Of a stretch of 36,542 bases of DNA, positions 3,978 through 21,384 are shown in pieces. The stretch comes from Tannerella forsythia (GTDB lineage: Bacteria; Bacteroidota; Bacteroidia; Bacteroidales; Tannerellaceae), in NCBI RefSeq assembly GCF_003860135.1, contig NZ_RQYN01000029.1, positions 1 through 36,542 of the forward strand, in the 5' to 3' direction. The position numbers and the translations under genes were made by a program. The first letter of the stretch is position 1; each line of letters opens with the position of its first letter. The notes beneath the pieces are model-generated. The model was given only the letters and a program-made list of their open reading frames with translations. It searched no databases and was not told where the DNA came from.

Positions 3978-4332
3978 CGATTTATCTGTGTCAAGGCAAC
4001 CGTATCACCATAGAGTCATCTTTTCGATACGTAAGCCATCGATGTTTCTACGAGTGGGTTGCAGCTACATGTAGTCGTTGTAAATATAAGCTCTGAGAGA
4101 TTAGATTGGTCATCGTCCTGAGTATTTATTTCTGTGGAAGAAACGATTATACCACAATATTAGTTGAACTTTCTCGGGTCTCCCCCAAAGTAGATGCACC
4201 GGCTATTTTTAACATAAAGATATGATTTCCCTCCTCATAAATAGGGATTTTTTGCATCAAAATAGTTATTAGTAGGGATTGTGAACAGCGTTCTTACCCT
4301 CTAACTTTGCAACCTAAAAAAGACGTATAGAT
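3978..4332. other. Divergent control region, about 350 bp
   Basis: AT-rich region without an ORF between the minus-strand hydrolase and the long plus-strand gene run. It carries two copies of a TAGGGATT motif (4242-4249 and 4273-4280) and the promoter of the downstream genes. The rest (3980-4230) shows nothing I recognise. Confidence 0.5.
4273..4309 (+). promoter_or_regulatory. Operon promoter with TAGGGATT box
   Basis: TAACTTTG at 4302-4309 is the -7 element. TAGGGATT at 4273-4280 begins 29 bp upstream of it. The same box with the same 29-bp spacing occurs before the DUF4198 gene (22439 to 22468). The position next to the -33 region fits an activator or an overlapping repressor site. The binding protein is unknown. 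Confidence 0.55.
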
Positions 4333-4971
4333 ATGGATAAGAGAATCAAACTGACAGGATACATCGGAATTGTGGCGAGCCTACTGATGTTCGCCGGCGA
4401 TATGTTGCTTTACTTTACGACGGAAAATTTCACCGGTAGGCACAACGAGTTGCTGCTATCGATGGGCAATGTCTCTTTCGGGCGATTGGTGGCAGGCGGT
4501 TTGCTCGGTCCTCTGTCTGCCGTGCTCTACATTGTGGGATTGTATCACCTCTATCTCCGCACCCAAGAACCCTACCGGCGTTCTGCACGGGTGATGTTTG
4601 CTATCTTTATCGTAGGCTATATGGTCGATGGGGCGTATCACGCCTTTTTCCCTGCCTTCGGCATTGTCGCAGCACAGGGGCATCCCGAATTTATAGAGCC
4701 GCTTGCAAAATATGTCGGCTATCTGGGTATGCTATTATTCGGATTCCTGGCGGTGGGTTGGACGATGTTCACCGTCATCACACTGCGTCGCCGCAACGAT
4801 TATCCCTTGTGGATACTTCTCTTCAACCCGCTACTGACCGCATGGCTCAACTTCGTATGGGTGCAGCTGCCGGCACCTTTCCAAGTGCTGATTGCCGGAG
4901 GCTGGTACAACCTTATTCACACGCTATTTTTTGCCGCATCGCTATTATCATTAAAGAAATCAATTAAATAA
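4333..4971 (+). CDS. Polytopic membrane protein, DUF6796-like (copy 1)
   Basis: 212 residues with about six hydrophobic membrane segments and no soluble domain. The N-terminal block GIVASLLMFAGDMLLYF matches in pattern the protein at 11346 (GIVAAICWIAGDMLIVGF); both also share a second-segment GALL/GGLLGPLSA..Y region and a late WLNP/FNPL segment, so they are paralogues. I assign the DUF6796 family from memory. The function is unknown. It is the first gene of the long plus-strand run, 23 nt behind the -7 element, and is 9 nt ahead of the methyltransferase-like gene. Confidence 0.65.
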   Translation: MDKRIKLTGYIGIVASLLMFAGDMLLYFTTENFTGRHNELLLSMGNVSFGRLVAGGLLGPLSAVLYIVGLYHLYLRTQEPYRRSARVMFAIFIVGYMVDGAYHAFFPAFGIVAAQGHPEFIEPLAKYVGYLGMLLFGFLAVGWTMFTVITLRRRNDYPLWILLFNPLLTAWLNFVWVQLPAPFQVLIAGGWYNLIHTLFFAASLLSLKKSIK

Positions 4972-4980
4972 TATAAATAT

Positions 4981-5544
4981 ATGGAACTCTCTTTTTTTAC
5001 AACATTCGAAATCGGTTGGCTGAATGGATGGATACCGTCATTCGCCATGTTGCTGGTGCAAATTCTTTTTATGCTGCTCTTTCCTCAAGGAGGCAAACGT
5101 GCGGTCGACACGTCGTGGTACACACCTCAAGACCGTCGGTACGCAGTTCTGAGTTCGGTAGCTCAGGCAGCAGTGCTGATAGTATCTGTTTTTGCGCCGT
5201 TTAAGTTCGGTACCCCATGGTTTGCTGTCGGTACGGCTGTTTACCTGATTGCATTTGCCCTGTTCGTATGGTCTTTCTTTTCGTATAAGGCAGGTAAGGC
5301 GGGCGAAACGATTCAGGGAGGCATTTACCGTTACTCACGCAACCCGATGTACTTCTTCTTCATGCTCGGCATGCTGGGCGTATGCATCGCCACGGCTTCG
5401 CTGTGGTTGTTCATTGTCATGGTACCGTTTGCTGTTTTTACGCATGGCATTATCCTCGGAGAGGAGCGTTATTGCGAAGCCACTTACGGCGAAGGATACC
5501 GCAAATACAAAGCCAATACACCACGATATTTTTTAATTGTATAA
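4981..5544 (+). CDS. Isoprenylcysteine carboxyl methyltransferase-like membrane protein
   Basis: 187 residues, about five membrane segments. The C-terminal half carries the ICMT/PEMT SAM-binding signature: GGIYRYSRNPMYFFF (about 111-125), then EERYCEATYGEGYRKYKANT and a final TPRYF. Such bacterial proteins methylate a small hydrophobic substrate at the membrane; none is proven for this branch. It follows copy 1 of the DUF6796-like gene by 9 nt. The next 330 bp are repeats. Confidence 0.85.
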   Translation: MELSFFTTFEIGWLNGWIPSFAMLLVQILFMLLFPQGGKRAVDTSWYTPQDRRYAVLSSVAQAAVLIVSVFAPFKFGTPWFAVGTAVYLIAFALFVWSFFSYKAGKAGETIQGGIYRYSRNPMYFFFMLGMLGVCIATASLWLFIVMVPFAVFTHGIILGEERYCEATYGEGYRKYKANTPRYFLIV

Positions 5545-5553
5545 GGCAGTACA

Positions 5554-5588
5554 GGTGTTGGGTATTGGGTATTAGGTTTTGGGTTGTT
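5554..5588 (+). repeat. Heptamer array (GGTnTTR), five units
   Basis: Five head-to-tail 7-bp units ggtgttg, ggtattg, ggtatta, ggttttg, ggttgtt. The same unit forms the arrays at 5813, 9689, 12417, 14220, 15126 and 15527. Confidence 0.8.
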
Positions 5589-5662
5589 AGGGGCGAACCC
5601 ACGTGTTTGCCCGATAATATGAAATGTCCGCCCCGATAAAATGCAATAAATATGATAATAAT
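5588..5662 (+). repeat. 75-bp dispersed hairpin repeat, copy 1
   Basis: About 93% identical (70 of 75) to 14827-14901. It starts with a stem of gggcgaac against gtttgccc around a 6-base loop and ends in an A/T-rich tail containing atgataataat. Both copies directly follow heptamer units. A degenerate version is visible near 12139-12198. Confidence 0.8.
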
Positions 5663-5690
5663 CGGAAATGACGAATGTTGCAATGTGGCT

Positions 5691-5791
5691 GTAGAGACGC
5701 AATTACTTTTGCGTTTAAGCGAGAGCAGAGCCGAATTTATTCGAGCTATGCCGAGCAAGAGCAAAATGTTAGAATAAAATTGCGTCTCTAC
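5691..5791. repeat. 101-bp MITE-like element, copy 1
   Basis: Perfect 14-bp terminal inverted repeats, gtagagacgcaatt at 5691-5704 and its complement at 5778-5791, enclose 73 bp with an inner hairpin (ccgaa/ttcg). No ORF. A second 101-bp copy lies at 12290-12390, 86% identical. The size, termini and lack of coding suggest a non-autonomous element or REP/BIME-like unit. Confidence 0.7.
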
Positions 5792-5812
5792 GGTGGTGGC
5801 AAAATGCTAAAA

Positions 5813-5840
5813 CCTAACACCCAATACCCAAAACCCCAAA
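5813..5840 (-). repeat. Heptamer array, four units
   Basis: Units cctaaca, cccaata, cccaaaa, ccccaaa, the reverse complement of the plus-oriented array at 5554. With it, the array flanks the hairpin and MITE-like repeats on both sides. Confidence 0.75.
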
Positions 5841-5873
5841 ATAAGAAATCAATCAATAAAAATAATAAGTATT

Positions 5874-6074
5874 ATGAGCATTACGAATTTTATCAACAGC
5901 GAAACAGGCACCATCGTACAGGGTGTAAATGGCATACGCCTGTGCCGGGAGTCGTGGATGACCGAAAGAGCCATGAGGCGGGCAGCACGTTGCAAAACGG
6001 GCACGCAGCCCATAAAGGATGTGCTACAAGAAAGTGAATGTGTTACTGATAAAGACATAGCTCTGCGTATATGA
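5874..6074 (+). CDS. Small protein of 66 residues, coupled to TonB receptor
   Basis: The ORF begins with ATG after an A-rich leader like those of its neighbours and ends in TGA overlapping the receptor's ATG by four bases (ATGA at 6071-6074), a standard translational-coupling arrangement. The product starts MSITNFINSETGTIVQGVNG, is basic in the middle (ERAMRRAARCKTG) and has three cysteines (about residues 24, 40 and 57). There is no signal peptide or membrane segment. I do not recognise a family. It could be a regulatory leader, a small cytoplasmic partner, or a peptide substrate for the methyltransferases further down; none of these is demonstrated. Confidence 0.6.
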   Translation: MSITNFINSETGTIVQGVNGIRLCRESWMTERAMRRAARCKTGTQPIKDVLQESECVTDKDIALRI

Positions 6075-8416
6075 AACATAAAATATTTTTTACTCTGGGT
6101 GTTTTACAGGTCTGTTTCTGTATAGTATTGCCCTCTTGGGCACAAACGGCACGCATTACCGGCGTGGTGATCGACGCCGAAAACAAAGAACCGCTTATCG
6201 GTGCCAGCATCTATATCGAGCAGTTGAAACGCGGTGAAGTTACCGGGCAGAATGGTACGTTTGTCCTCGACAAATTGGCTGCCGGCACATACACTACTGT
6301 TATTTCGTATATGGGCTACCATTCACATACAGAGACAGTCGTCCTTCGTGAGGGAGAAAGCCGAAAGCTGGTCGTTCGCCTCAAAGAAGAAGCTCAGTCG
6401 TTGGGAGAGGTTACCGTTACCGCCAAGGGCGAAGCCCGCAAGCTACGTGAGCAGGCTATGCCGATAGCCGTTATTTCCATGAGCCAGTTGCAGGGCACGG
6501 TCAACAGTGTTTCCGATATATTAGCCAAGACGGTGGGCGTTACCCTGCGTTCGTCCGGAGGAGTAGGGGGTGCGTCGCGTATTTCGGTACGCGGACTCGA
6601 AGGTAAACGCATCGGTTTCTTCCTCGATGGAACACCGATGAGCGACAACACCGACTTTATCGACATCAACGATATTCCGATTGATATGATAGACCGTATC
6701 GAGATATACAAAGGCGTTGTACCGGCTAAGTTTGGAGGGTCGGCTATGGGCGGTGCTGTCAATATCATCATCAGAGAATACCCCGACCGTTATGCCGACA
6801 TAAGTCATTCGTTCGAGTCGTTCAATACGCACAAAACGCAGTTAGTTGCCAAGCGAAACCTAAAAGAGAAAGGACTGGTGTTCGGGATGGGCGGCGGACA
6901 CACCTATTCCGACAACAACTACGTGATGGAGTCACCTTACGTAAAAGGGCTGAAGATAAAACGCAACCACGACCGTTTCCAAAAGTGGGTTGTAGGTGGC
7001 TCTGTCAGAGCACGCAAATGGTGGTTCGACGAGGTCGAAATCGAACCCATTTTCATAAAGACCGACCGCCAGATACAAGGCATAGAGACCGATATACGCA
7101 GTGCTACCATTAGCTCACACGTTTTGGGACTTGCCACGAATATAGAGAAAAAAAACTTCCTTGTCGAGGGATTGGATTTCGAAATGTCCACAAGTGTTGC
7201 CTATTCGATATATAATCTGATAGACACTGCAAAAGTCTGGTACGATTGGCAAGGCAATAGCTATCCCACGACTTCGCCCTACGGAGGCGAGTTGGGCACC
7301 CGCTACGCTTCCAATTCGGACGACCGGAAGATGGTGCTGCTGCACAAACTGAACTTCGAGTATCTGCTACACAAGCAGCATTCGCTCAACTTCAACTCAT
7401 TCTTCACCATTGCCAACGGATATCCCAAAGACGAACTGCGTACCCAAAGCATCGGCAAGCAGATAGTTTTCGACTCACGGATGCGTAGTTGGGTAAGCGG
7501 GCTGACCTATGACCTCCGTTCCAGCGACGATAAGTTCCTCAATTCACTTACGGGACGATACTATCTCTATACGATGGATACCCGTCAAGCCGATTTGTAC
7601 GGCTACAACATCCGTCCGATACATACCGTTAAGAGCAGTTTCGGAATAAACAATGCCTTGCGGTACCGCTTCCTCCCCGATTTGATGGGCAAATTCTCAG
7701 CCGGATACGATGTGCGGCTCCCCTCCGAAACCGAATTGTTAGGCGACGGATTCTTTGTTTCGCCTGCCGAAAACCTGTCGCCCGAACGCAACACAAGTGT
7801 AAACATCGGATTACTTTACGACCTGGCGGGCAAGAAACGCAGCAACCTGCAGGTAGAGGTAAACGCCTTTTATATGTATCTGCAAGATATGATACGCTTT
7901 ACACGCAGTTTTCTGGGAGCACAATATCAGAATTTCGGCGAGATGCGTACACTGGGTGTCGAAGCCGAAGTAAAAGCCGATATATTGCCCTGTCTCTACG
8001 GATATGTCAATGCCACGTATCAGGACCTGAGAGACGCCCGCCGGTTCGAAGAAAACAGCACCGTACCCAATCCCACCAAAGGCAAGCGGATGCCCAACAT
8101 TCCCTATCTGTTAGCCAATGCCGGACTGGAGTTTCATAAAGAAAACCTCTTTGGCGGACGCGGGCAAAATACCCGCATCTTTGCCGATTGCTCCTTTATC
8201 GAAGAGTATCTGTACGATTTCGAGATGACGAGCAACCAGCGGCGCATCCCTCGCAGTACGACCATCGATTTCGGTTTCGAGCACAGCTTCCTCAACAGCC
8301 GACTGTTCGTCTCCGGTAAAATCAAAAACCTGACCGACGCCCGCGTGCTGTCGGAGTTCAACCGTCCGCTGCCCGGACGCAGCTTCGGCGTGAAACTCAG
8401 GTATATTTTCAAATAA
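6071..8416 (+). CDS. TonB-dependent outer-membrane receptor
   Basis: 781 residues. A signal peptide ends near SWAQ (residue 25). Then comes a CarboxypepD_reg-like beta-sandwich (about 27-110: ITGVVIDAENKEPLIGASIY), a plug domain (about 115-235, with ISVRGLEGKRIGFFLDG and MGGAVNIII), and the 22-strand barrel with the usual aromatic end (RSFGVKLRYIFK). The size is that of a siderophore, heme or cobalamin receptor; SusC-type receptors are about 1000 residues, and no SusD gene follows. The next gene is a DUF4374 lipoprotein, the pairing known from the Bacteroides xenosiderophore system XusA-XusB (recalled, not searched). The ligand cannot be read from sequence. Confidence 0.93.
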   Translation: MKHKIFFTLGVLQVCFCIVLPSWAQTARITGVVIDAENKEPLIGASIYIEQLKRGEVTGQNGTFVLDKLAAGTYTTVISYMGYHSHTETVVLREGESRKLVVRLKEEAQSLGEVTVTAKGEARKLREQAMPIAVISMSQLQGTVNSVSDILAKTVGVTLRSSGGVGGASRISVRGLEGKRIGFFLDGTPMSDNTDFIDINDIPIDMIDRIEIYKGVVPAKFGGSAMGGAVNIIIREYPDRYADISHSFESFNTHKTQLVAKRNLKEKGLVFGMGGGHTYSDNNYVMESPYVKGLKIKRNHDRFQKWVVGGSVRARKWWFDEVEIEPIFIKTDRQIQGIETDIRSATISSHVLGLATNIEKKNFLVEGLDFEMSTSVAYSIYNLIDTAKVWYDWQGNSYPTTSPYGGELGTRYASNSDDRKMVLLHKLNFEYLLHKQHSLNFNSFFTIANGYPKDELRTQSIGKQIVFDSRMRSWVSGLTYDLRSSDDKFLNSLTGRYYLYTMDTRQADLYGYNIRPIHTVKSSFGINNALRYRFLPDLMGKFSAGYDVRLPSETELLGDGFFVSPAENLSPERNTSVNIGLLYDLAGKKRSNLQVEVNAFYMYLQDMIRFTRSFLGAQYQNFGEMRTLGVEAEVKADILPCLYGYVNATYQDLRDARRFEENSTVPNPTKGKRMPNIPYLLANAGLEFHKENLFGGRGQNTRIFADCSFIEEYLYDFEMTSNQRRIPRSTTIDFGFEHSFLNSRLFVSGKIKNLTDARVLSEFNRPLPGRSFGVKLRYIFK

Positions 8417-8465
8417 ATAACCCACTAAACAACATATTTAATAACATTTATAAATAATAAAACGT

Positions 8466-9686
8466 ATGAATAAAAAAATGATTTTGGCAGCTTGCGTGGC
8501 TGCATGTGTGATGACCGGTTGTGAAAAAGAAAACAACAACCAGTCCGTTGCCGACGGCGGTATGGGTAATATCCTTATTGAAACAACCGTAAAAAACCCG
8601 GATGGCATGAGCGGCTCGTCCTACCTCCAGTTGATATCCGATTTTTCGGGCAACATAGATAATTCCAAAGCGATACAGTTGAATTATGCCGACCCCATTG
8701 TGATTGTCGGAAAAGATGTATTCTCCTTCCCTTCTTTCGGCAAAGACGGTTCGCAGCAACTCCGGAAATACACGTACGATGCTGCTGACAAAAAACTGAA
8801 AGGTCCCCAAAGCATGGACGTTACGCCCGGTTCGGGAGCATACAATTTGGTAGGTGTCAGCGAAGAGAAAGCCTATATGCCGCTCTACAATTTGGGAACG
8901 GTGTGGATCATCAACCCCAAAACCATGCAGAAGACAGGCGAAATCGATTTGAAGCCTTACGCTCACGGCGATGCCAGTCCCGAACCTGCTATGGGACTTA
9001 TCTACAATGGGAAGTATTACCTGGCATTAGACCAGATAGGCGGAAATTTCCAACCCTACGACGAATATCAGCAGGCGGATGTCGTGATTATCGACGTCAA
9101 AACCGATAAGGTGCTGAAAGTGGCTTCCGAGAAAGCAACGGGACTTACTTTTCCTACCCGTCCGTTTTTGAAAGATATGATTTTTACCGACGAAAAAAAC
9201 GACCTTTACATCGCCTGCACCGGCTACTTCGGATTCGTGCCGGGCAAAACGAAAAACGGATTTGTATGTCTCTCTACCACGACCGACGAGTTTGATACTT
9301 CCAAATCGTGGGACATCTCGCAGACGGTGATCGAAGGAACAGCGGAAAACTACAAACCCGCTTCCGTCTATAACTGCAAATACCTCGGAGGCGGCAAATT
9401 GGCAGCCTATGTGTGTATACAGGAGCTGAACACCTCCAACCCTCACACTTCGCGTAATGCCATGGCGGTAATGATCGATCTAAAGGCTAAGACCGTCAAA
9501 AAAGTGGAGGGTATACCCTTGACCGATGGACATAGTATATTTATAGAAAGCTATAAAAATCAAATCGTATGGGGAGCTTACGGTGAACACAAAGTCGGCT
9601 TCTTTACTACTCAGTTGGATGGCAGTAATGCAAAGCTCGTACTCGGCACCATCGGCAATCCTACTTTTATGCATTCGTTTGAATAA
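8466..9686 (+). CDS. DUF4374 surface lipoprotein, XusB-like
   Basis: 406 residues, starting 49 nt after the receptor. The N-terminus is a lipoprotein signal with lipobox MTGC (MNKKMILAACVAACVMTGC), then an acidic/asparagine stretch (EKENNNQ) as in surface-exported Bacteroidetes lipoproteins. The body fits a beta-propeller: repeats of the type YMPLYNLGTVWIINPKTM, VVIIDVKTDKVLKV and MAVMIDLKAKTVKKV. DUF4374 includes XusB, which binds a ferric siderophore at the cell surface in Bacteroides (from memory). With the TonB receptor ahead of it, a role in ligand capture is likely. The usual third gene of that system, a PepSY inner-membrane protein, is not present here. Confidence 0.85.
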   Translation: MNKKMILAACVAACVMTGCEKENNNQSVADGGMGNILIETTVKNPDGMSGSSYLQLISDFSGNIDNSKAIQLNYADPIVIVGKDVFSFPSFGKDGSQQLRKYTYDAADKKLKGPQSMDVTPGSGAYNLVGVSEEKAYMPLYNLGTVWIINPKTMQKTGEIDLKPYAHGDASPEPAMGLIYNGKYYLALDQIGGNFQPYDEYQQADVVIIDVKTDKVLKVASEKATGLTFPTRPFLKDMIFTDEKNDLYIACTGYFGFVPGKTKNGFVCLSTTTDEFDTSKSWDISQTVIEGTAENYKPASVYNCKYLGGGKLAAYVCIQELNTSNPHTSRNAMAVMIDLKAKTVKKVEGIPLTDGHSIFIESYKNQIVWGAYGEHKVGFFTTQLDGSNAKLVLGTIGNPTFMHSFE

Positions 9687-9688
9687 AA

Positions 9689-9747
9689 GGTATTAGGTTT
9701 TGGGTATTGGGTTTTAAACAAAGCAACCCAACACCTAAAACCCAAAT
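9689..9747. repeat. Heptamer arrays in inverted orientation
   Basis: Four plus-oriented units (9689-9716) face three minus-oriented units (9727-9747) across a 10-bp spacer, so the RNA can fold into a long hairpin between the DUF4374 and methyltransferase genes. No U-run follows. It may stabilise or process the transcript instead of ending it. Confidence 0.7.
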
Positions 9748-9760
9748 AAATTTGAAATTT

Positions 9761-10594
9761 ATGAACGAAAAAATAGAAAACAAACTGACCGAAATACCCG
9801 AAACGATGCTTATCACGCTTTGGGCAAAGGCAACCGAAACAGGCCGTCACGATGGTCTGCTGCACGACGAGAAAGCGGTCGAAATACTCCGTCGGATCGA
9901 TTACGATTTCACCAAGTTCCGCAAAGCCAAATTCTCGCAGGTGGGCTGCTGCATACGCGCCGGCCTTATCGACCGCGAAGCGCAAGACTTTCTCAGCCGT
10001 CACCCCGATGCCGTAGTTGTACAACTCGGAGCCGGCATCGATGCCCGCTACGAACGTCTTAACTATCCCGCCGTAACCCACTGGTACGACCTCGATCTGC
10101 CCGAAGCCATCGACCTGCGACGAAAGTTCCTCCCCGAAACGGAACGGAATACATTCATCGCCTCCTCGCTCTTCGATGAGGAGTGGATGGAGCAGGTACA
10201 GTCGCACCGTAAGCCTGTGCTGATACTTATCGAAGGCGTGCTGATGTATTTCGAACCCGAACAGGTACGTGCCTTTTTCGACAAAGTTTGCAGTCGCTTC
10301 GACGAAGCGACCATCGTCTTCGACATGCTTGTTTTCGCAGCCGTAGGGCACTCACGTCAACACGATTCGCTCCGCAGCATGAGCGACAAGGTGGAATTCA
10401 AATGGTCGCTGCTCCATACAAAGGAGATGGAGACGTGGAACGGCCGGATCCGTCTCGAAAGAGAACATTATCTGAGCAATTACGCACACGGGCGTTACCC
10501 TTTCATTGCCCGAATGCTCTACAAAATACCCTATTTCTTCCGCCGCTTCAATCAGCGAGTGGTCGTATTGCATATCGGTAACCCTCAAAATTAA
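9761..10594 (+). CDS. LCM/TcmP-type SAM methyltransferase
   Basis: 277 residues from the ATG at 9761; the frame is open further up but only through the heptamer repeat. It belongs to the leucine carboxyl methyltransferase-like family (PF04072) with the SAM site VVQLGAGIDARYERL (about 86-100) and the following acidic strand HWYDLDLPEAIDLRRKFL. LILIEGVLMYFEPEQV (about 157-172) is the other family mark. Bacterial members O-methylate small molecules such as polyketides. The next methyltransferase gene starts 6 nt downstream, so the two enzymes are made together. Confidence 0.88.
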   Translation: MNEKIENKLTEIPETMLITLWAKATETGRHDGLLHDEKAVEILRRIDYDFTKFRKAKFSQVGCCIRAGLIDREAQDFLSRHPDAVVVQLGAGIDARYERLNYPAVTHWYDLDLPEAIDLRRKFLPETERNTFIASSLFDEEWMEQVQSHRKPVLILIEGVLMYFEPEQVRAFFDKVCSRFDEATIVFDMLVFAAVGHSRQHDSLRSMSDKVEFKWSLLHTKEMETWNGRIRLEREHYLSNYAHGRYPFIARMLYKIPYFFRRFNQRVVVLHIGNPQN

Positions 10595-10600
10595 CAAGTC

Positions 10601-11254: not shown

Positions 11255-11345
11255 CGTCACTTGCGGAGAAAGGCAATGACCGCTAAGAACGCAAAGAAGA
11301 TATACACATACATCTTAAATATAAAATTAAGGACAAGAAAATAAT
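11255..11345. repeat. Gap with (A)CGCAAAG-type repeat
   Basis: The 91-bp gap contains ccgctaagaacgcaaagaa, whose reverse complement recurs twice near 12199-12235 together with plus-oriented cgcaaag units to 12290. This is a third short-repeat family in the operon. Confidence 0.5.
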
Positions 11346-14213: not shown

Positions 14214-14219
14214 AGATTA

Positions 14220-14272
14220 GGTGTTAGGTTTTGGGTATTGGGGTTTAGGCAAAAACAACCCAACACCTAAAA
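14220..14272. repeat. Heptamer arrays in inverted orientation
   Basis: Four plus-oriented units (14220-14247) face two minus-oriented ones (14259-14272), the same arrangement as at 9689-9747, in the gap after an ABC gene. Confidence 0.7.
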
Positions 14273-14299
14273 CAAATAATTATCAAGAAAAAAAATAAT

Positions 14300-14809: not shown

Positions 14810-14826
14810 TGGAGGTGTTGGGTACG

Positions 14827-14901
14827 TAGGGGCGAACCCACGTGTTCGCCCGGTAATATGAAATGCCCGCCCCGATAAAATAGAATAAATATGATAATAA
14901 T
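14827..14901 (+). repeat. 75-bp dispersed hairpin repeat, copy 2
   Basis: Second copy of the repeat at 5588-5662, with a perfect stem gggcgaac/gttcgccc here. A heptamer (ggtgttg, 14815-14821) precedes it. Its last bases supply an ATG that opens the reading frame through the 21-bp array. Confidence 0.8.
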
Positions 14902-14917
14902 GGAAAACTACTTACAC

Positions 14918-15127
14918 TACGTGGGAAATTGCTCCCCCTATGTGGGAAATTGTCTCCCCTATGTGGGAAATTGTTTCCCCTACGTGGGAAATTGTTCCCC
15001 CCACGTGGGAAATTGTCTCCCCCACATGGGAAATTGTTCCCCCTACGTGGGAAATTGTCTCCCCTACGTGGGAAATTGCTCCCCCTATGTGGGAAATTGT
15101 TCCCCCCACGTGGGAAATTGTTCCCCC
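14918..15127. repeat. 21-bp minisatellite, ten exact-length units
   Basis: Ten head-to-tail units of exactly 21 bp, consensus taYgtgggaaattgtYtcccc, 210 bp in total with a few substitutions and no length change. Because 21 is a multiple of three, frames stay open: the plus strand reads YVGNCSP repeats in one frame and LSPLCGK or MWEIVSP in the others, and the minus strand is also open. Each unit is a near-palindrome (ggga...tccc) and unit joints can form cccacgtggg. I see no start signal that makes any frame clearly a gene. Confidence 0.9.
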
Positions 15128-15167
15128 CAACACCCAACACCTAAAACCCAACACCTAAAACCTGAAA
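15126..15167 (-). repeat. Heptamer array, six units
   Basis: Follows the 21-bp array directly: cccaaca, cccaaca, cctaaaa, cccaaca, cctaaaa, cctgaaa. It ends 6 bp before the ATG of the VOC gene and so takes the place where the ribosome binding site would be. Confidence 0.75.
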
Positions 15168-15173
15168 AGACAG

Positions 15174-15584
15174 ATGAAAATACGTAAAATATATGCCTGC
15201 TGGGTTTATGTGAGCGATATGGAGCAATCCGTTCGTTTTTATCAAGACATAGGCTTTACCGTCAAATTCGTTGAGGACGACGGTGTCTGGGTGGAATTCG
15301 ATTTGGGCGAAACATCGTTTGCCCTTCTGCAACGACCGGCGGAGAAAGGTAAGGTGCAGCCCCGAAAGACACGAATTATGTTTGAGGTAGCGCATATCGA
15401 AAAGATGCAGGAACATTTGATTTCTCTCGGAGTCAGGCTGATTGGAGGTATTAGGGAAGAGCCTTACGGCAAACTGCTGACCTTCGAAGACCCCGACGGA
15501 CATTGGCTGGAATTTTTCGAAAACAACCCAAAACCCCAAACCCAACACCTAACACCCAAGACCCAAAACCCAAAACCCAAATAA
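15174..15584 (+). CDS. VOC-fold (bleomycin-resistance-like) protein
   Basis: 136 residues, one glyoxalase/bleomycin-resistance fold domain (about 1-117): ACWVYVSDMEQSVRFYQDIG at the start and GKLLTFEDPDGHWLEFFE at the end. A natural end is the glutamate after WLEFF. The last 19 codons, NNPKPQTQHLTPKTQNPKPK, are translated from an eight-unit heptamer array (15527-15582), so a repeat has extended the protein. Such VOC proteins bind or modify small molecules; the substrate is unknown. It lies directly ahead of the second half-transporter. Confidence 0.82.
   Translation: MKIRKIYACWVYVSDMEQSVRFYQDIGFTVKFVEDDGVWVEFDLGETSFALLQRPAEKGKVQPRKTRIMFEVAHIEKMQEHLISLGVRLIGGIREEPYGKLLTFEDPDGHWLEFFENNPKPQTQHLTPKTQNPKPK
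15527..15582 (-). repeat. Heptamer array inside a coding end, eight units
   Basis: cccaaaa, ccccaaa, cccaaca, cctaaca, cccaaga, cccaaaa, cccaaaa, cccaaat without interruption. All but the last bases are inside the VOC reading frame. Confidence 0.85.
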
Positions 15585-15608
15585 TAACTAATAAAAACAT
15601 ATCATACA

Positions 15609-17339
15609 ATGCTTAATTATTTTCAGAACCGTTTTGCCCTTTCGGAAAAAGGGGCGCGCTCGCTGGCAGGAGGAATTGTTTTTTCTGCCCTGTTGAATAT
15701 TGCCATGATGTTTCCGGCAGTATTTGTGTTTATGTTTCTGACGGAATATCTCCGTCCTGTATTCGACCCTCATAGCACCGTTACCAACGGTTTCTGGTAC
15801 TATGCAGCGGTAGCCGTCGCCTTTCTGACGGTCGCTTTCGTCATTGCCCTTTGGCAATATACCAATACCTTTTCCAACATCTATACCGAGAGTGCCAACC
15901 GCCGTATCGCACTTGCCGAGAAGCTTCGCAAGTTGCCGTTGGCATTCTTCGGCGAGAAGAACCTTTCCGACCTGACGTCGAATATCATGGACGACAATAA
16001 TATTATGGAGCAACTTTTTTCGCACACCATGCCCCAGCTCTTTGCCTCCGCCTTCACCACCTTGCTTATCGGTGTGGGGCTCTTTTTCTACCAGTGGCAA
16101 CTGGCTCTGGCATTGCTTTGGGTGGTTCCGGTGGCTCTGCTCCTGATATTGCTGTCGAAGAAGCTGCTCGACCGGCTCAACGTCGACTATCATCACACCA
16201 AACTCGATGTAGCCGAACAGGTTCAGGCAGGACTCGAATGCGTGCAGGAAATCAAAGCCTACAACGGCGAAGAGGCATACCTCGAAAGCCTCGACCGAAG
16301 CCTGAACCGTTACGAAAAAAGCCTCACCAAAGGCGAATTTGTCGGAAATCTTCTGATTAACGGAGCCAATGCGATACTCAAGCTCGGTATGGCAACGGTC
16401 GTCATCGTCGGCGCCTACCTCTTGTCCGTCGGCACGGTCGATGTGTTTACCTACCTCATCTTCCTGATGATATCGGCAAGTATCTACAACCCCATCAGCG
16501 AGATATTCAACAGCGTTGCAGGGCTCACTGTTCTCGACGTACGCATCAACCGCATGAAGGAGATGGAAGAAATGCCCATACAGCAGGGCAGGACGGAATA
16601 TCAACCGAACAACTACGACATCACTTTCGAAAAGGTCGATTTTGCTTACGAGGAAGGCAAACAGGTGTTGCAGGGCGTCTCGTTCACGGCACGTCAGGGA
16701 GAGGTAACGGCGCTGGTAGGTCCTTCGGGCGGAGGCAAGAGCACTTCGGCAAAACTTGCCGCCCGCTTCTGGGACATCAACGGCGGACGCATCACCCTTG
16801 GCGGTGAAGACATCTCGCAGATTGACCCCGAAGCCCTGCTCCGCAACTATGCCGTAGTCTTTCAGGATGTGCTGCTCTTCAATGCCAGCGTGGCGGATAA
16901 TATACGTGTCGGCAAGCAGGACGCCACCGACGAAGAAGTCCGCCGCGTTGCCCGTCTGGCACAGTGCGACGAGTTCGTCAGCCGTCTGTCGCAGGGATAC
17001 GATACGCTTATCGGCGAAAACGGAGCGTCGCTCTCAGGCGGTGAGCGTCAACGTATCTCCATTGCCCGCGCCCTGCTCAAAGACGCTCCCATCGTACTGC
17101 TCGACGAAGCCACCGCCAGCCTCGACGTCGAGAACGAAACGAAAATACAAGCCGGTATCTCGGAGCTGATAAAGAACAAAACCGTGCTCATCATCGCTCA
17201 CCGCATGCGTACCGTAGCCAATGCCCACAAAGTGGTCGTGCTCAAAGAGGGACACGTAGCCGAGCAGGGGCATCCCGCCGAGCTGATGAAACAGGGCGGC
17301 GAGTTCGCCCGTATGGTAGAAAGACAAAAGAAGAATTAA
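15609..17339 (+). CDS. ABC half-transporter, exporter fold (subunit 2)
   Basis: 576 residues: transmembrane domain (about 10-305) and ATPase with Walker A GPSGGGKST (about 371), signature LSGGERQR (about 474), Walker B IVLLDEATASLDVENE (about 494) and H-loop IIAHRMR. It is the partner of the protein at 12462 (together IrtAB/YbtPQ-like or a heterodimeric exporter). The last 55 codons, from about 17172, occur again at 18111-18281, and the last 17 or so at 20461-20532. The copies share the ending ERQSKAG, while this gene ends ERQKKN, so its final codons appear replaced by the left edge of the first inserted module. Confidence 0.9.
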   Translation: MLNYFQNRFALSEKGARSLAGGIVFSALLNIAMMFPAVFVFMFLTEYLRPVFDPHSTVTNGFWYYAAVAVAFLTVAFVIALWQYTNTFSNIYTESANRRIALAEKLRKLPLAFFGEKNLSDLTSNIMDDNNIMEQLFSHTMPQLFASAFTTLLIGVGLFFYQWQLALALLWVVPVALLLILLSKKLLDRLNVDYHHTKLDVAEQVQAGLECVQEIKAYNGEEAYLESLDRSLNRYEKSLTKGEFVGNLLINGANAILKLGMATVVIVGAYLLSVGTVDVFTYLIFLMISASIYNPISEIFNSVAGLTVLDVRINRMKEMEEMPIQQGRTEYQPNNYDITFEKVDFAYEEGKQVLQGVSFTARQGEVTALVGPSGGGKSTSAKLAARFWDINGGRITLGGEDISQIDPEALLRNYAVVFQDVLLFNASVADNIRVGKQDATDEEVRRVARLAQCDEFVSRLSQGYDTLIGENGASLSGGERQRISIARALLKDAPIVLLDEATASLDVENETKIQAGISELIKNKTVLIIAHRMRTVANAHKVVVLKEGHVAEQGHPAELMKQGGEFARMVERQKKN

Positions 17340-17359
17340 AAAGCAAAAATTAAAATAAA

Positions 17360-18091
17360 ATGAAAAACTGTATAATATTGATTTCTTTATTATTTATTTC
17401 CTGTTCAATAAATAAAAAAGTAATAGAAGGAGAAATTCCTATTTTAAAAAATAGGATGAGAGCAAGCCATATAATATATGGAGTTGATGATTTGCCGAAA
17501 GCCGTAAAAGAATGGCAAGAAAAAGGCTTCTATGTAGAATATGGGCAAGATACAAAAGATGTCAATGCTTTGATATATTTTAGTGAAGGACCATTTATAG
17601 AATTAATTAATGCAAAATATATTTCAACTTTTCAGAAAAAGATATTCTCTCTCTTAGGTTGGAAACCCCTAATAGACAGAATGTCTAATGTAGAAATAGT
17701 CAATAAAAATATAGGTAGCTTTTGTATAGAAAAAGATGCGGGAAATCTTGATGAACAAATTAAATGGTTAGAAGCAAAATATAATGAGAAAGGATTTTAT
17801 TGGAAAAAAGTAAAACGAAACGACATTAAAGGGAACAAACTGAGATGGAAGCTGTTCTTTCCTAACAACTTGGGATTGCCTTTTTTAATGTCTTACTATG
17901 AAAATGTGGAACCGAAACCTAAAAATTTTGTACACCCGAATGGTGTAATAGGAATAAAAAAACTAACATTGGTTACGGATAAACATTCAATCGAAATCTT
18001 AAAAGAATTGGTAAATGATAATCGTATCATCTATCAGATTGGAAATCGTCAGGCGGAAGTAGTTGATATAGAGTTTGAATATGATGAATGA
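17360..18091 (+). CDS. Glyoxalase-like (VOC) lipoprotein, AT-rich, probably acquired
   Basis: 243 residues. MKNCIILISLLFISC is a lipoprotein signal with cysteine 15 as the lipid site. ASHIIYGVDDLPKAVKEWQE (about 35-54) is the start of a Glyoxalase_3-like VOC domain, with a second half from about 190 (IGIKKLTLVTDKHSIEILKE). Codons are markedly richer in A and T (aaa, aat, ata, tta) than those of the ABC genes on both sides. It lies between two copies of the ABC gene end and has the look of a foreign cassette. Substrate unknown. Confidence 0.75.
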   Translation: MKNCIILISLLFISCSINKKVIEGEIPILKNRMRASHIIYGVDDLPKAVKEWQEKGFYVEYGQDTKDVNALIYFSEGPFIELINAKYISTFQKKIFSLLGWKPLIDRMSNVEIVNKNIGSFCIEKDAGNLDEQIKWLEAKYNEKGFYWKKVKRNDIKGNKLRWKLFFPNNLGLPFLMSYYENVEPKPKNFVHPNGVIGIKKLTLVTDKHSIEILKELVNDNRIIYQIGNRQAEVVDIEFEYDE

Positions 18092-18281
18092 TAGCTTAAA
18101 AAATGAGACTAAGAACAAGACCGTACTCATCATCGCTCACCGCATGCATACCGTAGCCAATGCCCACAAAGTGGTCGTGCTCAAAGAGGGGTGCGTAGCC
18201 GAGCAGGGACATCCCGCAGAGCTAATGAAACAGGGCGGCGAGTTCGCCCGTATGGTAGAGAGGCAAAGCAAAGCGGGGTAA
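18081..18281 (+). pseudogene. Duplicated 3' end of the ABC half-transporter gene
   Basis: From 18111 the sequence repeats 17172-17322 at about 94% (9 differences in about 150 bases), in the same reading frame (KNKTVLIIAHRMHT...ERQSKAG). An ATG at 18081 or 18084 overlapping the VOC stop gives a 65-66 residue peptide with the H-loop but no Walker motifs. It cannot work as an ATPase; it is a partial duplicate. Confidence 0.85.
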
Positions 18282-18309
18282 AAAGAGGGGGCAATAGCTC
18301 CCTCTTTGA
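18282..18309 (+). terminator. Rho-independent terminator
   Basis: aaagaggg (18282-18289) pairs with ccctcttt (18301-18308) around an 11-base loop, with T-rich sequence after it. It would end transcription of the long operon after the duplicated ABC end, so genes downstream need their own start. Confidence 0.65.
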
Positions 18310-18442
18310 TTATAGAAAATTTTGTAACTTTGCAATCTAAAGGTTTGATGTTTTATTGATCAATGTGTTTGTAAAATTTAAATCAGGAAACACCACCCTC
18401 CAAGAAATGAATTAAAAACAAAAAATAATTACCTTTGCAGTT
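18310..18442 (+). promoter_or_regulatory. Two possible -7 elements before a small ORF
   Basis: TAACTTTG at about 18327-18334 and TACCTTTG at 18430-18437 match the -7 consensus. The second lies only 5 nt ahead of the ATG at 18443. The sequence is AT-rich, as in the rest of the inserted module. Confidence 0.45.
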
Positions 18443-18607
18443 ATGAATATAAGCGAAAAGAATAGATACAAGGTTGTTTTCAAAAAAGCGTTGGATAAGT
18501 TTACAGACAAACTTGAAAAATACGTTTCCACCGAAAACGGCGATTGGCGACAGTGTAACACTGTACCTTTGTTTTCAGAGGAAAATTTATCATTTAAGTC
18601 TAACTAA
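18443..18607 (+). pseudogene. 54-codon ORF, possible gene remnant
   Basis: Reads MNISEKNRYKVVFKKALDKF at the start, then a lysine-rich helix-like part and GDWRQCNTVPLFSEENLSF. The first 35 residues look like the start of a longer protein, after which the composition changes abruptly, so I suspect a truncated gene. It has a -7 element directly in front. No family recognised. Confidence 0.4.
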
Positions 18608-18653
18608 TATCGCCTGACCGTTAATAGCAATTGTAGCAAACTATTCATAGATA

Positions 18654-19571
18654 ATGGAAAAGATGGAAATCATAAAGACAAATACTTTAACGAAACGCTT
18701 CGGTTCAACCGTTGCGACAGATAACATTGCCATTCACGTTAATCAGGGCGAGATTTACGGTTTCTTGGGACTAAACGGTGCGGGTAAGACAACCCTAATC
18801 CGTATGCTGTTAGGAATGATAAAGCCCGATAGCGGAACAATCACACTTTTTGGCAACGAACTTACACCGCAATTCAGACAATGGAATGAAATCGGTTATT
18901 TGGTTGAAACGCCCTATTCATATCCCAATCTTTCGGTTTACGAAAACCTGAAAGTGATTTACAAATTGCGACAACAGAACAACCCAAAAGCGATTGACGA
19001 GATTATTGAAAAACTAAAACTCACAAAATACATAAACACCAAAGCCAACGCCTTATCACTTGGCAACCAACAACGATTAGGACTTGCAAAAGCACTCATA
19101 CACAAACCTAAGCTTCTGATATTGGACGAACCGATAAACGGTTTAGACCCGGAAGGAATTGTAGAAGTTCGGGAGCTTTTAACCGACCTCGCCAAAAACG
19201 GTTCAACCATTTTTCTTTCAAGTCACATACTCGGCGAAATTTCCAAAGTTGCAAACCGTATTGCCATCATTCACGAAGGAAGACTGATTAAGGAGTTGAC
19301 GACAAAAGAATTATCAAGTCAAATCATCAAGAAAATTCTGGTGCAAACAACCGACAATCAAAAGGCAATTCAACATTTACAAAATGCCAATTATTCGGTT
19401 GAACCAATAGAGACAGACGAAATAGAAATTACAGATAGCGAAGCATTGGAAAAACCGGAACTCATATCAAAACTATTGACAGAAAACGGACTTCCACCGA
19501 AACAAATTTTCCTGTTTACGGAAGATTTAGAAATGTATTTTCTGCGAACCATAAAAGGAAACAAACGATGA
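18654..19571 (+). CDS. ABC-2 exporter ATPase (BcrA-like)
   Basis: 305 residues; ATG at 18654 or 18663. Walker A GLNGAGKT (about 43), signature LSLGNQQR, Walker B LLILDEPINGLDPEG, H-loop FLSSHIL. The C-terminal 80 residues are the extra domain of the bacitracin/lantibiotic-type drug exporters (BcrA group). It is translationally coupled to the permease (ATGA at 19568-19571). The AT-rich codon use differs from the surrounding operon. It could export a peptide antibiotic or another toxic compound; substrate not readable. Confidence 0.88.
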   Translation: MEKMEIIKTNTLTKRFGSTVATDNIAIHVNQGEIYGFLGLNGAGKTTLIRMLLGMIKPDSGTITLFGNELTPQFRQWNEIGYLVETPYSYPNLSVYENLKVIYKLRQQNNPKAIDEIIEKLKLTKYINTKANALSLGNQQRLGLAKALIHKPKLLILDEPINGLDPEGIVEVRELLTDLAKNGSTIFLSSHILGEISKVANRIAIIHEGRLIKELTTKELSSQIIKKILVQTTDNQKAIQHLQNANYSVEPIETDEIEITDSEALEKPELISKLLTENGLPPKQIFLFTEDLEMYFLRTIKGNKR

Positions 19572-20356
19572 AACAGCAAATATGTGCATTACAAGCAGAA
19601 CTGATAAAAATAAAACACTCGAAAATTATTTGGGCAACTTTTATCGCATTTGCATTAGCACCAATTATGGGTGCTGTTTGCATTTTTATCATTCAAGGTG
19701 GCGAAGCATTGGGAAAAACAGGCGCACTTGTTGCCAAAGCAAAAGCAATGAACTTTGAGGCAAATTGGGAATCGTATTTTGATATACTGACACAAGCCGT
19801 TAGCGTTGGCGGTATTTTGGTTTTCGGGTTCGTGGCAAGTTGGATTTTTGGTCGTGAATATTCTGACGGAACAGCTAAAGATTTGCTTTCACTCCCTACA
19901 TCACGAACACAAATTCTGAACGCAAAATTTAGTCTGTTCGTACTTTGGTGTTTCCTGCTTGTGCTGTCAAATTTGTTGCTGGCATTTGTTTTCGGAGCAC
20001 TTTTGCAACTCCCACCACCGGGCAGTGGTTGGCTGCTCCAATCGTTAGGCGACTATTTCTTTACGACCGTTTTGACAATTATTATTGGTTTTCCGATTGC
20101 ATTTTTCGCTCTTTGGAGCAAAGGCTATCTTGCACCTTTGGGCTTTGTTGCATTGACATTGGTATTTGCACAAGTAATTGCAGCGACAGGTTACGGCTCA
20201 TATTTTCCTTGGTCAGTCCCCGCACTTTATAGTGGTGTAGGCGGCGAATACAAAATCTTACTTGACAATTACAGCTACGGAATTTTAGTCCTGACGAGTA
20301 TTGCAGGGTATATAGCGACAGTGATGTATTGGAACTATGCAGACCAAACGAAATAG
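19568..20356 (+). CDS. ABC-2 exporter permease
   Basis: 262 residues, six membrane segments. QAELIKIKHSKIIWATFIAF at the start and SWIFGREYSDGTAKDLLSLP (about 90-109) after the second segment are the standard ABC-2 permease marks. It overlaps the ATPase gene by four bases. Together the two form one complete transporter with no regulator beside it. It is the last gene of the second inserted module. Confidence 0.87.
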   Translation: MKQQICALQAELIKIKHSKIIWATFIAFALAPIMGAVCIFIIQGGEALGKTGALVAKAKAMNFEANWESYFDILTQAVSVGGILVFGFVASWIFGREYSDGTAKDLLSLPTSRTQILNAKFSLFVLWCFLLVLSNLLLAFVFGALLQLPPPGSGWLLQSLGDYFFTTVLTIIIGFPIAFFALWSKGYLAPLGFVALTLVFAQVIAATGYGSYFPWSVPALYSGVGGEYKILLDNYSYGILVLTSIAGYIATVMYWNYADQTK

Positions 20357-20368
20357 AGAGAAACAACT

Positions 20369-20458
20369 ACCGCCAACATGGGCTTTGCGTCAGGCGGGAT
20401 TACACACAAATTTGAAGTTTGGTCTCCCGCACCAGCGTTCGTCTCGTGTTGACAGGCC
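20369..20458. other. Long imperfect inverted repeat, attC-like
   Basis: Outer arms gccaaca (20372-20378) and tgttgac (20447-20453, one mismatch) and inner arms gcggga (20394-20399) and tcccgc (20425-20430) enclose a 20-30 bp centre, with less well paired sequence between. A 60-140 bp imperfect palindrome just after a gene is what integron attC sites look like, but the core RYYYAAC/GTTRRRY boxes are not exact. It marks the right edge of the inserted module. Confidence 0.3.
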
Positions 20459-20460
20459 TT

Positions 20461-20532
20461 CATCCCGCCGAGCTGATGAAACAGGGCGGCGAGTTCGCCC
20501 GTATGGTAGAGAGGCAAAGCAAAGCGGGGTAA
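20461..20532 (+). pseudogene. Second duplicate of the ABC gene end
   Basis: The first 50 bases equal 17271-17320 without a difference; the final 22 equal the end of the copy at 18081-18281 (gaggcaaagcaaagcggggtaa). The frame and stop codon are kept. This is probably the original end of the ABC gene, now separated from its body by two insertions. Confidence 0.85.
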
Positions 20533-20591
20533 AAAACCATGAATGAAGGACGGTTGAAAGATTGTATCGAAAACCAGCAAATTTATACTAT

Positions 20592-21374
20592 ATGAACATT
20601 TACGAATTCGGTATCGAAAATCAGAGGAAACTGCTCTTTTTTCAAGGGTCGTGTACCTGCTGGAAAGATTATATGCCCTCCATAGAGCTGCTCTCGAAGG
20701 AGTTTCATGTGATTGTTCCCGCTCTGGAAGGACACGACCCTGCCGAGAAAACGGATTTTATCTCTGTAGAAAAAACCGTCGGCGACACCACCGACTATTT
20801 ATTGAAACGTGGGTATAAGGAACTTTATGCCGCTTACGGACTGAGTATCGGCGGGGCAATGGTTTTACGCCTGTTGGCGGAACAGCGCATACAAGTACAT
20901 AAAGCTATCGTAGACGGAGGCACAACACCCTACGAATTTCCATACTGGTTCACGCGTCTGATCCTGCTTCGCGATTACCTGATGATTCAACTCCTCAGAA
21001 GCAGCATGTTCGTTCTAAAGCTCTTTTTCGATCCCAAACGCTGGACACCCGAAGGCTGCGATCCGGAAGCCGAATACAAAGCCATACTTCTGTTTCTGAA
21101 AGGACTTTCGGGAAAAACCATTTGGAATATCTTCGACTCTGCCAACAACTACGATATGCCAAACCCCATGCCCAAGTTGTCGACGGAAACACTGTTTTGC
21201 TACGGCTCTCGCGAAAAAAACGCCCGGAAGAGCAACATCCGTTGGGTATTGAGCCATGTAAACGGCGTACAGCTGCGGGAAATACCGGATATGGAACATG
21301 GCGAGCTGGTCATGCTGCATCCCAAGCAATTCTACGAAACGCTGACCGACTTTCTGAATCGTGCTAAAGTATAG
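20592..21374 (+). CDS. Alpha/beta hydrolase
   Basis: 260 residues from the ATG at 20592 (the frame is open to 20562). The nucleophile elbow is YGLSIGGAM (serine about 91), an acidic residue follows in the late half, and the catalytic histidine is likely in IPDMEHGELVML (about 238). The N-terminus LLFFQGSCTCWKDYMPSIEL is the first strand and oxyanion region. It is a general small esterase/lipase fold. It stands 59 nt after the ABC gene end, so before the insertions it directly followed subunit 2. An esterase opening an ester-type siderophore would suit the operon, but this is inference. An 18-codon ORF (20539-20595) overlaps its start by ATGA. Confidence 0.8.
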   Translation: MNIYEFGIENQRKLLFFQGSCTCWKDYMPSIELLSKEFHVIVPALEGHDPAEKTDFISVEKTVGDTTDYLLKRGYKELYAAYGLSIGGAMVLRLLAEQRIQVHKAIVDGGTTPYEFPYWFTRLILLRDYLMIQLLRSSMFVLKLFFDPKRWTPEGCDPEAEYKAILLFLKGLSGKTIWNIFDSANNYDMPNPMPKLSTETLFCYGSREKNARKSNIRWVLSHVNGVQLREIPDMEHGELVMLHPKQFYETLTDFLNRAKV

Positions 21375-21375
21375 A

Positions 21376-21384
21376 GGGGGGGGG
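21376..21384 (+). repeat. G9 homopolymer
   Basis: Nine consecutive G just after the hydrolase stop and 46 bp ahead of the glutaminase -7 element. Such runs change length by slippage. Confidence 0.6.

Follow-up and report, generated by a model that had tools for sequence, protein, structure and literature searches.

The window analysed here is the whole of contig NZ_RQYN01000029.1 (G000:C148; 36,542 bases) of a Tannerella forsythia genome (3.3 Mb, 226 contigs), and the system in question is a run of plus-strand genes that, as judged by sequence comparison, is a real and mobile set with a recurrent core: a Xus variant with methyltransferases and a pair of ATP-binding cassette (ABC) half-transporters (ABC1, ABC2), of importer lineage on the ABC1 side. 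The order from 4.3 kb is DUF6796, a PEMT/ICMT-type methyltransferase, a TonB-dependent receptor, a propeller lipoprotein, an LCM-family methyltransferase and a class I methyltransferase; then a second DUF6796, ABC1, a 169-amino-acid protein, a VOC protein, ABC2 and a Glyoxalase_3 lipoprotein; and, up to 21.4 kb, the ATPase and permease of an ABC-2 type transporter followed by an alpha/beta hydrolase (Table 1). Short spacers separate the first DUF6796 gene from the PEMT gene (9 bp), TonB from the lipoprotein (49), LCM from the class I methyltransferase (6), VOC from ABC2 (24) and ABC2 from the Glyoxalase_3 gene (20); the remaining gaps are wider, several with repeats. A preliminary description had set a candidate chelate-uptake system at 4273..21374, and these limits are good, the island homology described below spanning 4231-21382. 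The receptor, the VOC protein, the hydrolase and the three methyltransferases (ICMT-like, LCM and type 11) that it listed were all recovered, but it lacked both DUF6796 proteins, the Glyoxalase_3 lipoprotein and the ABC-2 pair; its 'beta-barrel-like protein' is presumably the 169-amino-acid open reading frame (ORF). An NCBIfam scan of ten window proteins gave no match at cut-off among the matches listed, and scans of the window for tRNAs and Rfam families gave no matches.

Table 1 Features of the Tannerella forsythia window. SAM, S-adenosylmethionine; G320, the second genome with the island.
Feature	Position	Strand	Basis or remark
Horizontally shared island	4231..21382		blocks about 95-99% DNA-identical to G320; replaced segments inside
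DUF6796 multi-pass membrane protein, copy a	4333..4971	+	PF20599, 68.6 bits
PEMT/ICMT-type membrane methyltransferase	4981..5544	+	PF04191
TonB-dependent receptor, XusA relative	6071..8416	+	XusA 9GBC, 245 bits
XusB-like beta-propeller lipoprotein, short type	8466..9686	+	profile and fold
LCM-family SAM methyltransferase	9761..10594 (ATG 9761; ORF opens TTG 9707)	+	PF04072, alignment
Class I SAM methyltransferase (type 11/25)	10601..11254	+	PF08241/PF13649
DUF6796 multi-pass membrane protein, copy b	11346..12095	+	PF20599, 69.1 bits
ABC half-transporter 1 (ABC1), YbtP/IrtA-like	12462..14213	+
169-amino-acid protein	14300..14809	+	no Pfam or NCBIfam match; DNA 98.7% identical to G320
VOC/glyoxalase protein	15174..15584	+	only 3' end common to G320
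ABC half-transporter 2 (ABC2)	15609..17339	+	YbtQ first among half-transporters (whole-length profile); membrane domain ambiguous
Glyoxalase_3 lipoprotein	17360..18091	+	common to G320
Copy of ABC2 3' end (of 17172-17328)	18111..18267	+	93%
ABC-2 type transporter pair (ATPase, permease)	18654..20356	+	common to G320
Third, shorter copy of ABC2 3' end	20461-20535
Alpha/beta hydrolase	20562..21374	+	common to G320

The receptor, compared with all PDB sequences, matched XusA over residues 27-780 with the score given in Table 1, the next chain reaching 50 bits; 9GBC is the XusAB complex according to the available part of PMC13142918. The lipoprotein encoded next to it had no Pfam match at E ≤ 1e-3, and a search of its own genome with the DUF4374 model PF14298 (E ≤ 10) left it unmatched and gave a match on another contig, C156; one of its relatives scores 22.1 bits with the model, under the cut-off of 25. 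A ten-sequence profile, in whose alignment Cys19 is invariant, matched XusB of Bacteroides fragilis (BfXusB, 9HQE) at E 1.3e-13, with DUF4374 chains following at 6e-5 to 1e-4. With the AlphaFold2 model (pLDDT 84), the top six of 1566 Foldseek matches were BfXusB chains (E 5.5e-17 to 2.5e-14; TM score on the query 0.69-0.73; identity 15-16%), followed by the B12 binder BtuG. Profile and modelled fold identify the lipoprotein as a predicted XusB-fold protein, so that the earlier assignment to DUF4374 and XusB held for XusB and not for the Pfam family. BfXusB is described as a ferrichrome binder of the short, hookless type (PMC13142918, available part), and since both proteins have 406 residues the window lipoprotein is likely hookless. 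XusB-like relatives were found in six other genomes of the 295 searched, with a TonB relative in 9/9 loci read.

The half-transporters were placed by ranking half-transporter scores rather than by a tree, among the best 60 PDB matches of each search, whose whole-length lists are led by two-domain P-glycoproteins with two matches summed. Among the matches listed, full-length ABC1 scored 356 bits with YbtP, 288-304 with IrtA and about 248 with MsbA; a 12-sequence profile gave YbtP 490, IrtA 412-425, YbtQ 374, MsbA 365.5 and Sav1866 359 bits; and the membrane domain alone gave YbtP 88, IrtA 69-80, MsbA 30-33 and YbtQ 26 bits. By these rankings ABC1 is of the importer lineage. For ABC2 the single sequence scored YbtQ 260, MsbA 253 and YbtP 251 bits, and the profile YbtQ 423, Sav1866 395, YbtP 384.5, MsbA 362 and IrtA 355 bits, among the matches listed; its lineage by score ranking is ambiguous. 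The expectation that the pair would not group with exporters was thus borne out for ABC1 (YbtP 88 against MsbA 33 bits) and met mixed scores in ABC2. The ATAFADPENE stretch singled out in ABC1 is real, with seven of its ten residues invariant in the 12-sequence alignment and A505, A507 and N511 conserved at ≥90%.

The island is present in a second Bacteroidales genome (G320), which the tool assigns to a different family; there, 11 of the 12 genes compared are 95.2-99.4% DNA-identical to those of the window. The sdhA gene, which is not part of the island, shares 74.4% identity with that of G320 and 77-83% with those of four genomes of the window's own family, none of which has ABC1 at E ≤ 1e-110. 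Because the island genes are 95-99% identical and sdhA 74% identical to G320, the island is, as read from these identities, recent horizontal DNA that moved between families, with its ligand-binding protein and its cargo swapped. The right end lies at 21382; the left edge is uncertain, because the G320 contig itself starts at the point (4231) from which homology extends. The twelfth gene compared is the XusB-like one, whose identity is 74.5% at the DNA level and 68% at the protein level (window 8466-9686 against L194 4041-5258), and its divergence amid nearly identical genes is, on the same comparison, an allele swap of the surface binder. The segments from the class I methyltransferase to ABC1 and from ABC1 to ABC2 differ largely between the window and G320, and DUF6796 copy b and most of the VOC gene were not found at the matching position there. 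Flanking the downstream cassettes are ABC2 3'-end copies, which were likely left behind when cassettes inserted. Two kinds of repeat also occur: a 21-bp unit present ten times at 14917-15127, open as a 98-amino-acid ORF, and AACCCAAAACCC-type repeats in the intergenic spacers (5554-5849, 9698-9741, 14230-14273, 15118-15598).

Recurrence was counted in 131 loci of ≥6 kb (E ≤ 1e-10, >60 bits; 16 named duplicate, own or near-identical loci excluded); the gene caller keeps the longest ORF at overlaps and can miss genes (the annotated TetR of L196 was missed), so that the counts are lower bounds. From a set of 100 LCM loci, five (L110, L113, L117, L121, L147) were dropped, no LCM gene being called there. 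A TonB relative was found in 17 of the 18 loci with a XusB-like gene, and TonB, XusB-like and LCM genes stand together in 8/131 loci besides the window and its near-identical relative, recurring in Prevotella, Capnocytophaga and Hallella. The gene orders include TonB-XusB-LCM-TetR (L074, L082), TetR-TonB-LCM-XusB (L106, Hallella) and TonB-DUF6796-XusB-LCM (L093, Capnocytophaga), the TetR labels being assigned by eye except where annotated. The other arrangement, ABC1-ABC2-LCM, recurs in Bacteroidota, archaea and cyanobacteria. Of 295 order-level genomes searched for LCM, 22 had a match, and in 6 of the 20 regions fetched (the own genome and G153 were not) ABC1 and ABC2 lie near LCM (L047, L049, L050, L053, L054, L056). 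The ABC1 search gave 27 matches in 23/393 genomes; leaving aside the own genome and G320, the pair is no more than about 2 kb from LCM in 7/25 (some regions end at contig ends), these being the same six and L190. Among the best 80 of 566 confirmed LCM loci of the named collection, nine have a XusB-like gene (L074, L079, L081, L082, L087, L093, L094, L106 and L069, the last almost certainly the same contig as G320:C7 from its matching genes) and six the full ABC pair: L071 (Phocaeicola abscessus), L118 (Methanosarcina spelaei), L126 (Hyella), L131 (Methanophagales), L139 (a Bacteroidia metagenome-assembled genome, MAG) and L145 (Adonisia). At genome level (Fisher tests, own genome excluded, kinship ignored), ABC1 (E ≤ 1e-110) occurs in 5/6 genomes with a XusB-like gene against 10/288 without (1e-6), and in 8/21 genomes with LCM against 7/273 without (8e-7). 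These recurrence counts are the grounds for reading the core as more than a chance assembly.

Companionship elsewhere, which the preliminary description had proposed to check, was therefore found for TonB, XusB-like, LCM, ABC1 and ABC2, and in fewer loci for DUF6796, PEMT and the class I methyltransferase. PEMT relatives were found in 4/131 loci, near LCM in L047, L064 and L137 and near ABC1-ABC2 in L047 and L180; a class I methyltransferase relative (50% identical) lies near TonB-XusB in L014; and DUF6796 relatives adjoin the XusB-like gene in L093, L054 and L209 (3/18 XusB-like loci), a DUF6796 profile search of the 131 loci finding only the three loci used to build the profile. A class I methyltransferase plasmid search (E ≤ 1e-15) gave no match. 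Class I and LCM-type methyltransferases are also placed with zinc-type transporters: in L065 (1870-5680) a cation efflux gene (72%), a class I methyltransferase (58%) and LCM (26%) are adjacent, followed by a ZIP-like gene (by eye). The LCM methyltransferase also occurs on its own, since in L095-L103 (Moraxella, Cardiobacteriaceae, Neisseria, a proteobacterial MAG) it is 46-50% identical and without other window relatives. The hydrolase, both VOC proteins (the Glyoxalase_3 lipoprotein being the second), the 169-amino-acid protein and the ABC-2 permease had relatives in 0/131 loci. As they have no relative there, the hydrolase and both VOC genes are probably passengers, and the 169-amino-acid protein is probably cargo; metal release by the hydrolase, suggested earlier, is not supported, and the enzyme was rejected as a member of the core, the near-identical G320 island being the only other place where it was found.

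More distant relatives of the set accompany a nonribosomal peptide synthetase (NRPS). Two other Bacteroidales, genome G059 and Phocaeicola massiliensis OY726067 (a 140-kb circular record), have a common order: NRPS, phosphopantetheinyl transferase (PPTase), TonB, XusB-like, DUF6796, two Sacchrp_dh genes, a 264-amino-acid protein, a methyltransferase, two PEMT-like genes, ABC1 and ABC2. The two clusters are 80% (NRPS, 2,055 columns), 59%, 73%, 61%, 66%, 65% and 62%, 67%, 88%, 71% and 72%, 84% and 81% identical, respectively; for one member of the PEMT-like pair in G059, Pfam itself gives no match. The G059 NRPS has two adenylation, two thiolation, one condensation and one thioesterase domains in Pfam. 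Compared with the window, the ABC1, XusB-like and TonB proteins of the clusters show 29-37% identity. The P. massiliensis run (L209 10319-30092), downstream of integrase/mobilisation-like genes (by eye), is by its gene content a candidate metallophore cluster in gut Bacteroidales; literature searches on P. massiliensis siderophores or biosynthetic gene clusters found nothing, and those on Bacteroides siderophore biosynthesis or NRPS found nothing on such clusters by title and abstract start. The window's own genome has no condensation domain (PF00668; of 15 genomes searched, only G059 has one) and no IucA/IucC match over the cut-off, and because of this a foreign chelator is more likely than a self-made one, as far as these two routes go. 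PepSY_TM had three matches in the own genome, on C80 and C156 only, and no PepSY protein was found among the window proteins scanned, as the preliminary description had noted. C156 carries a separate xus-like locus (L021 5075-15691) with a TonB receptor, a 425-amino-acid protein weakly DUF4374-like (E 0.002), a PepSY protein, a cobaltochelatase-type protein (by eye), a second TonB and a second PepSY.

The link to iron comes from gene neighbourhoods and from published expression. A stretch of 19 kb in M. spelaei (L118 875-19307) encodes, all on the plus strand, FeoA, FeoB, ABC1 and ABC2 (56-58% identical to their window counterparts), LCM, a protein with a CbiX domain and the iron-dependent repressor DtxR. 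Across 33 ABC-pair rows (32 places, L018 and L054 being the same), the neighbours, labelled by similarity to seed genes, were TetR-like (18), LCM (13, over-counted as some loci were found through LCM), TonB (8), HmuY-like (4), PepSY-like (3), XusB-like (three rows, two places), flavodoxin (1) and FUR (1); HmuY is over the Pfam cut-off in L053 and L180 and below it in L178, PepSY lies in L053 and FUR in L056. A Subdoligranulum record has TetR-ABC1-ABC2 beside a ZnuABC-like zinc/manganese importer (by eye). According to the available part of PMC10434189, low iron raised TetR-ABC-ABC operons 13- to 851-fold in B. thetaiotaomicron, Prevotella intermedia and Porphyromonas gingivalis: BT0507-0509 (TetR, two ABC) 51- to 676-fold, PIOMA14_II_0447-0449 102- to 851-fold, one of several P. 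intermedia TetR-ABC-ABC-MMPL operons 40- to 223-fold and PG1175-1181 13- to 136-fold; xusABC of B. thetaiotaomicron rose 489- to 676-fold. For P. gingivalis and P. intermedia the same part reports 2- to 64-fold increases of genes or loci for methyltransferases of the ICMT family and of class I (PG1461-1469, PG1868, PG1870, PIOMA14_I_0824, I_0939), likened here to the window enzymes by family description. Prevotella nigrescens ties this induction to the window family, since its pair is homologous (ABC1 65%, ABC2 62% identical) and its operon order (TetR, ABC, ABC, MMPL, lipoprotein-sorting) is that described for P. intermedia in the text available. A literature search on the BT0507-0509 locus tags found only PMC10434189 relevant by title, and it was again the useful paper in searches on YbtPQ-type transporters. 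The metal is most likely ferric iron, with zinc a further candidate because of the Subdoligranulum neighbourhood.

Homology and published expression together give good support to chelate uptake across the outer membrane and also support a metal-responsive ABC pair; the ligand, the metal, the direction of transport and the methylation target are what we infer beyond that. Our preferred reading, held tentatively and at somewhat less than an even chance, is that the island is an acquired metal-chelate uptake system in which the ABC pair imports the chelate and methylation of the chelator then frees the metal. The XusB-like surface lipoprotein would, by its family, catch the chelate and pass it to the XusA-like TonB receptor, and the ABC1-ABC2 heterodimer may carry it across the inner membrane, replacing the PepSY step of Xus. 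The least certain steps follow: the LCM, class I and PEMT enzymes, working in the cytoplasm or at the inner membrane, might methylate the chelator's donor groups, which could lower its affinity, free the metal and block re-chelation. DUF6796 would be an occasional membrane partner, and the hydrolase, the VOC proteins, the 169-amino-acid protein and the ABC-2 pair would be cargo cassettes.

Several observations weigh against import followed by methylation. LCM is often without these partners, the full ABC pair and the XusB-like gene being present in 6 and 9 of the best 80 loci (lower bounds, some loci being short), and the pairs of L126, L131 and L145 (Methanophagales, cyanobacteria) are 34-40% identical to the window's. 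DUF6796 occurs in 3/131 loci and the class I methyltransferase (>60 bits) in 6/131; besides the island, loci with both a XusB-like gene and the ABC pair number only two (L054, L209); and LCM and XusB-like genes do not co-occur at genome level (1/21 against 5/273, p 0.36). An MMPL-like gene near 10/33 ABC-pair rows could mean export, no TetR was seen in the window, and the ABC2 membrane domain alone scores slightly higher with TM288 (41) and MsbA (36) than with IrtA (33) and YbtP (28 bits). The NRPS clusters have the same methyltransferase types, which also fits biosynthetic tailoring.

The scattered occurrence of LCM, the spacer repeats, the ABC2 tail copies and the segments replaced in G320 are what would be expected if only TonB-XusB were one system, the ABC pair a general iron-starvation transporter and the methyltransferases unrelated cassettes. 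Such an assembly by chance is unlikely, though it deserves serious weight; the same families are reunited at 29-38% identity in G059 and P. massiliensis, which argues against chance, and LCM directly adjoins the ABC pair in Phocaeicola, Methanosarcina and Adonisia. The clusters that join NRPS and PPTase to TonB, XusB-like, DUF6796, methyltransferases and the ABC pair, and the Hyella pair and LCM lying between two NRPS-like genes, speak for a remnant or helper of biosynthesis: the methyltransferases would tailor a self-made metallophore that the pair exports or recycles, and the window would be a cut-down relative of an NRPS cluster, now using its neighbours' product. We consider this unlikely, as the window's genome has no condensation domain, the receptors share only 33-35% identity with their cluster counterparts, so that the same ligand is not expected, and 0/6 XusB-LCM loci (L074, L079, L082, L087, L093, L106) show an NRPS by eye. 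Tailoring may nevertheless stand beside uptake, if the enzymes share a ligand in producers and receivers.

A tetrapyrrole system, in which the pair and the methyltransferases would handle heme or another tetrapyrrole and LCM would esterify a propionate carboxylate, draws on HmuY-type proteins near 4/33 ABC-pair rows (two over the Pfam cut-off, one below, one by similarity), on CbiX proteins near 2/33 and on the methylation of carboxylates by LCM family members. It is the least probable of the alternatives and improbable in itself: the lipoprotein fold matches XusB first and BtuG second, the window proteins scanned gave no HmuY match, and the FeoAB, NRPS and XusB contexts need no tetrapyrrole.

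The preferred reading, uptake with release by methylation, would matter in several ways. Among the major bacteria of the gut are the Bacteroidales, which compete for iron, and we know of no precedent for handling chelators by methylation; literature searches on LCM with siderophores or ABC transporters and on DUF6796 found nothing. The methyltransferase partnership in Bacteroidota, archaea and cyanobacteria points to such handling, and the P. massiliensis version, if it makes a metallophore, would give a gut member of the Bacteroidales its own siderophore. The available part of PMC13142918 describes the inner-membrane iron carrier after XusAB and XusC as unknown, and an ABC gene pair, of importer lineage in ABC1, physically joined to a XusAB-type pair makes this step testable. 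At its widest, and quite doubtfully, Bacteroidota might hold a mobile, undescribed class of chelate systems that free iron by methylating the chelator, with NRPS producers, receiver-only islands and XusB swaps that shift ligands.

Compared with known systems, the window shares with XusABC (BT_2065-2063; B. fragilis BF9343_4229/4228) a XusA-family receptor and an adjacent XusB-fold lipoprotein, but it has methyltransferases, DUF6796 and the ABC pair instead of a PepSY gene (none among the proteins scanned), and its lipoprotein is too far for the DUF4374 Pfam model. BtuBG likewise joins a TonB receptor to a propeller lipoprotein; XusB chains fit better than BtuG, and the BtuB match of the receptor is confined to residues 130-274 (45 bits). 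The TetR-ABC-ABC operons are likened to the window through the P. nigrescens pair, whose operon order is that described for P. intermedia (PIOMA14_II_0447-0449), or, for BT0507-0509, by the description in the part available, whereas the window pair is split by a cassette, lacks a visible TetR and is joined to TonB-XusB and methyltransferases. YbtPQ and IrtAB are likewise exporter-fold half-transporter pairs, to whose YbtP and IrtA members ABC1 is nearest, but the ABC2 membrane domain is not clearly YbtQ-like and import would be a deduction from sequence; IrtA has an extra SIP domain, whereas Pfam finds the two ABC domains and nothing further in the window pair. Seven gene families, including XusB-like and DUF6796, are common to the window and the NRPS clusters of G059 and P. 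massiliensis, but the window is without the NRPS, the PPTase and the two dehydrogenases, and LCM is absent from the part of the P. massiliensis record that was read and in G059 lies beyond a transposase-like gene. From the known release routes, methyl release would differ in modifying the chelator by methylation rather than reducing the metal or hydrolysing the ligand.

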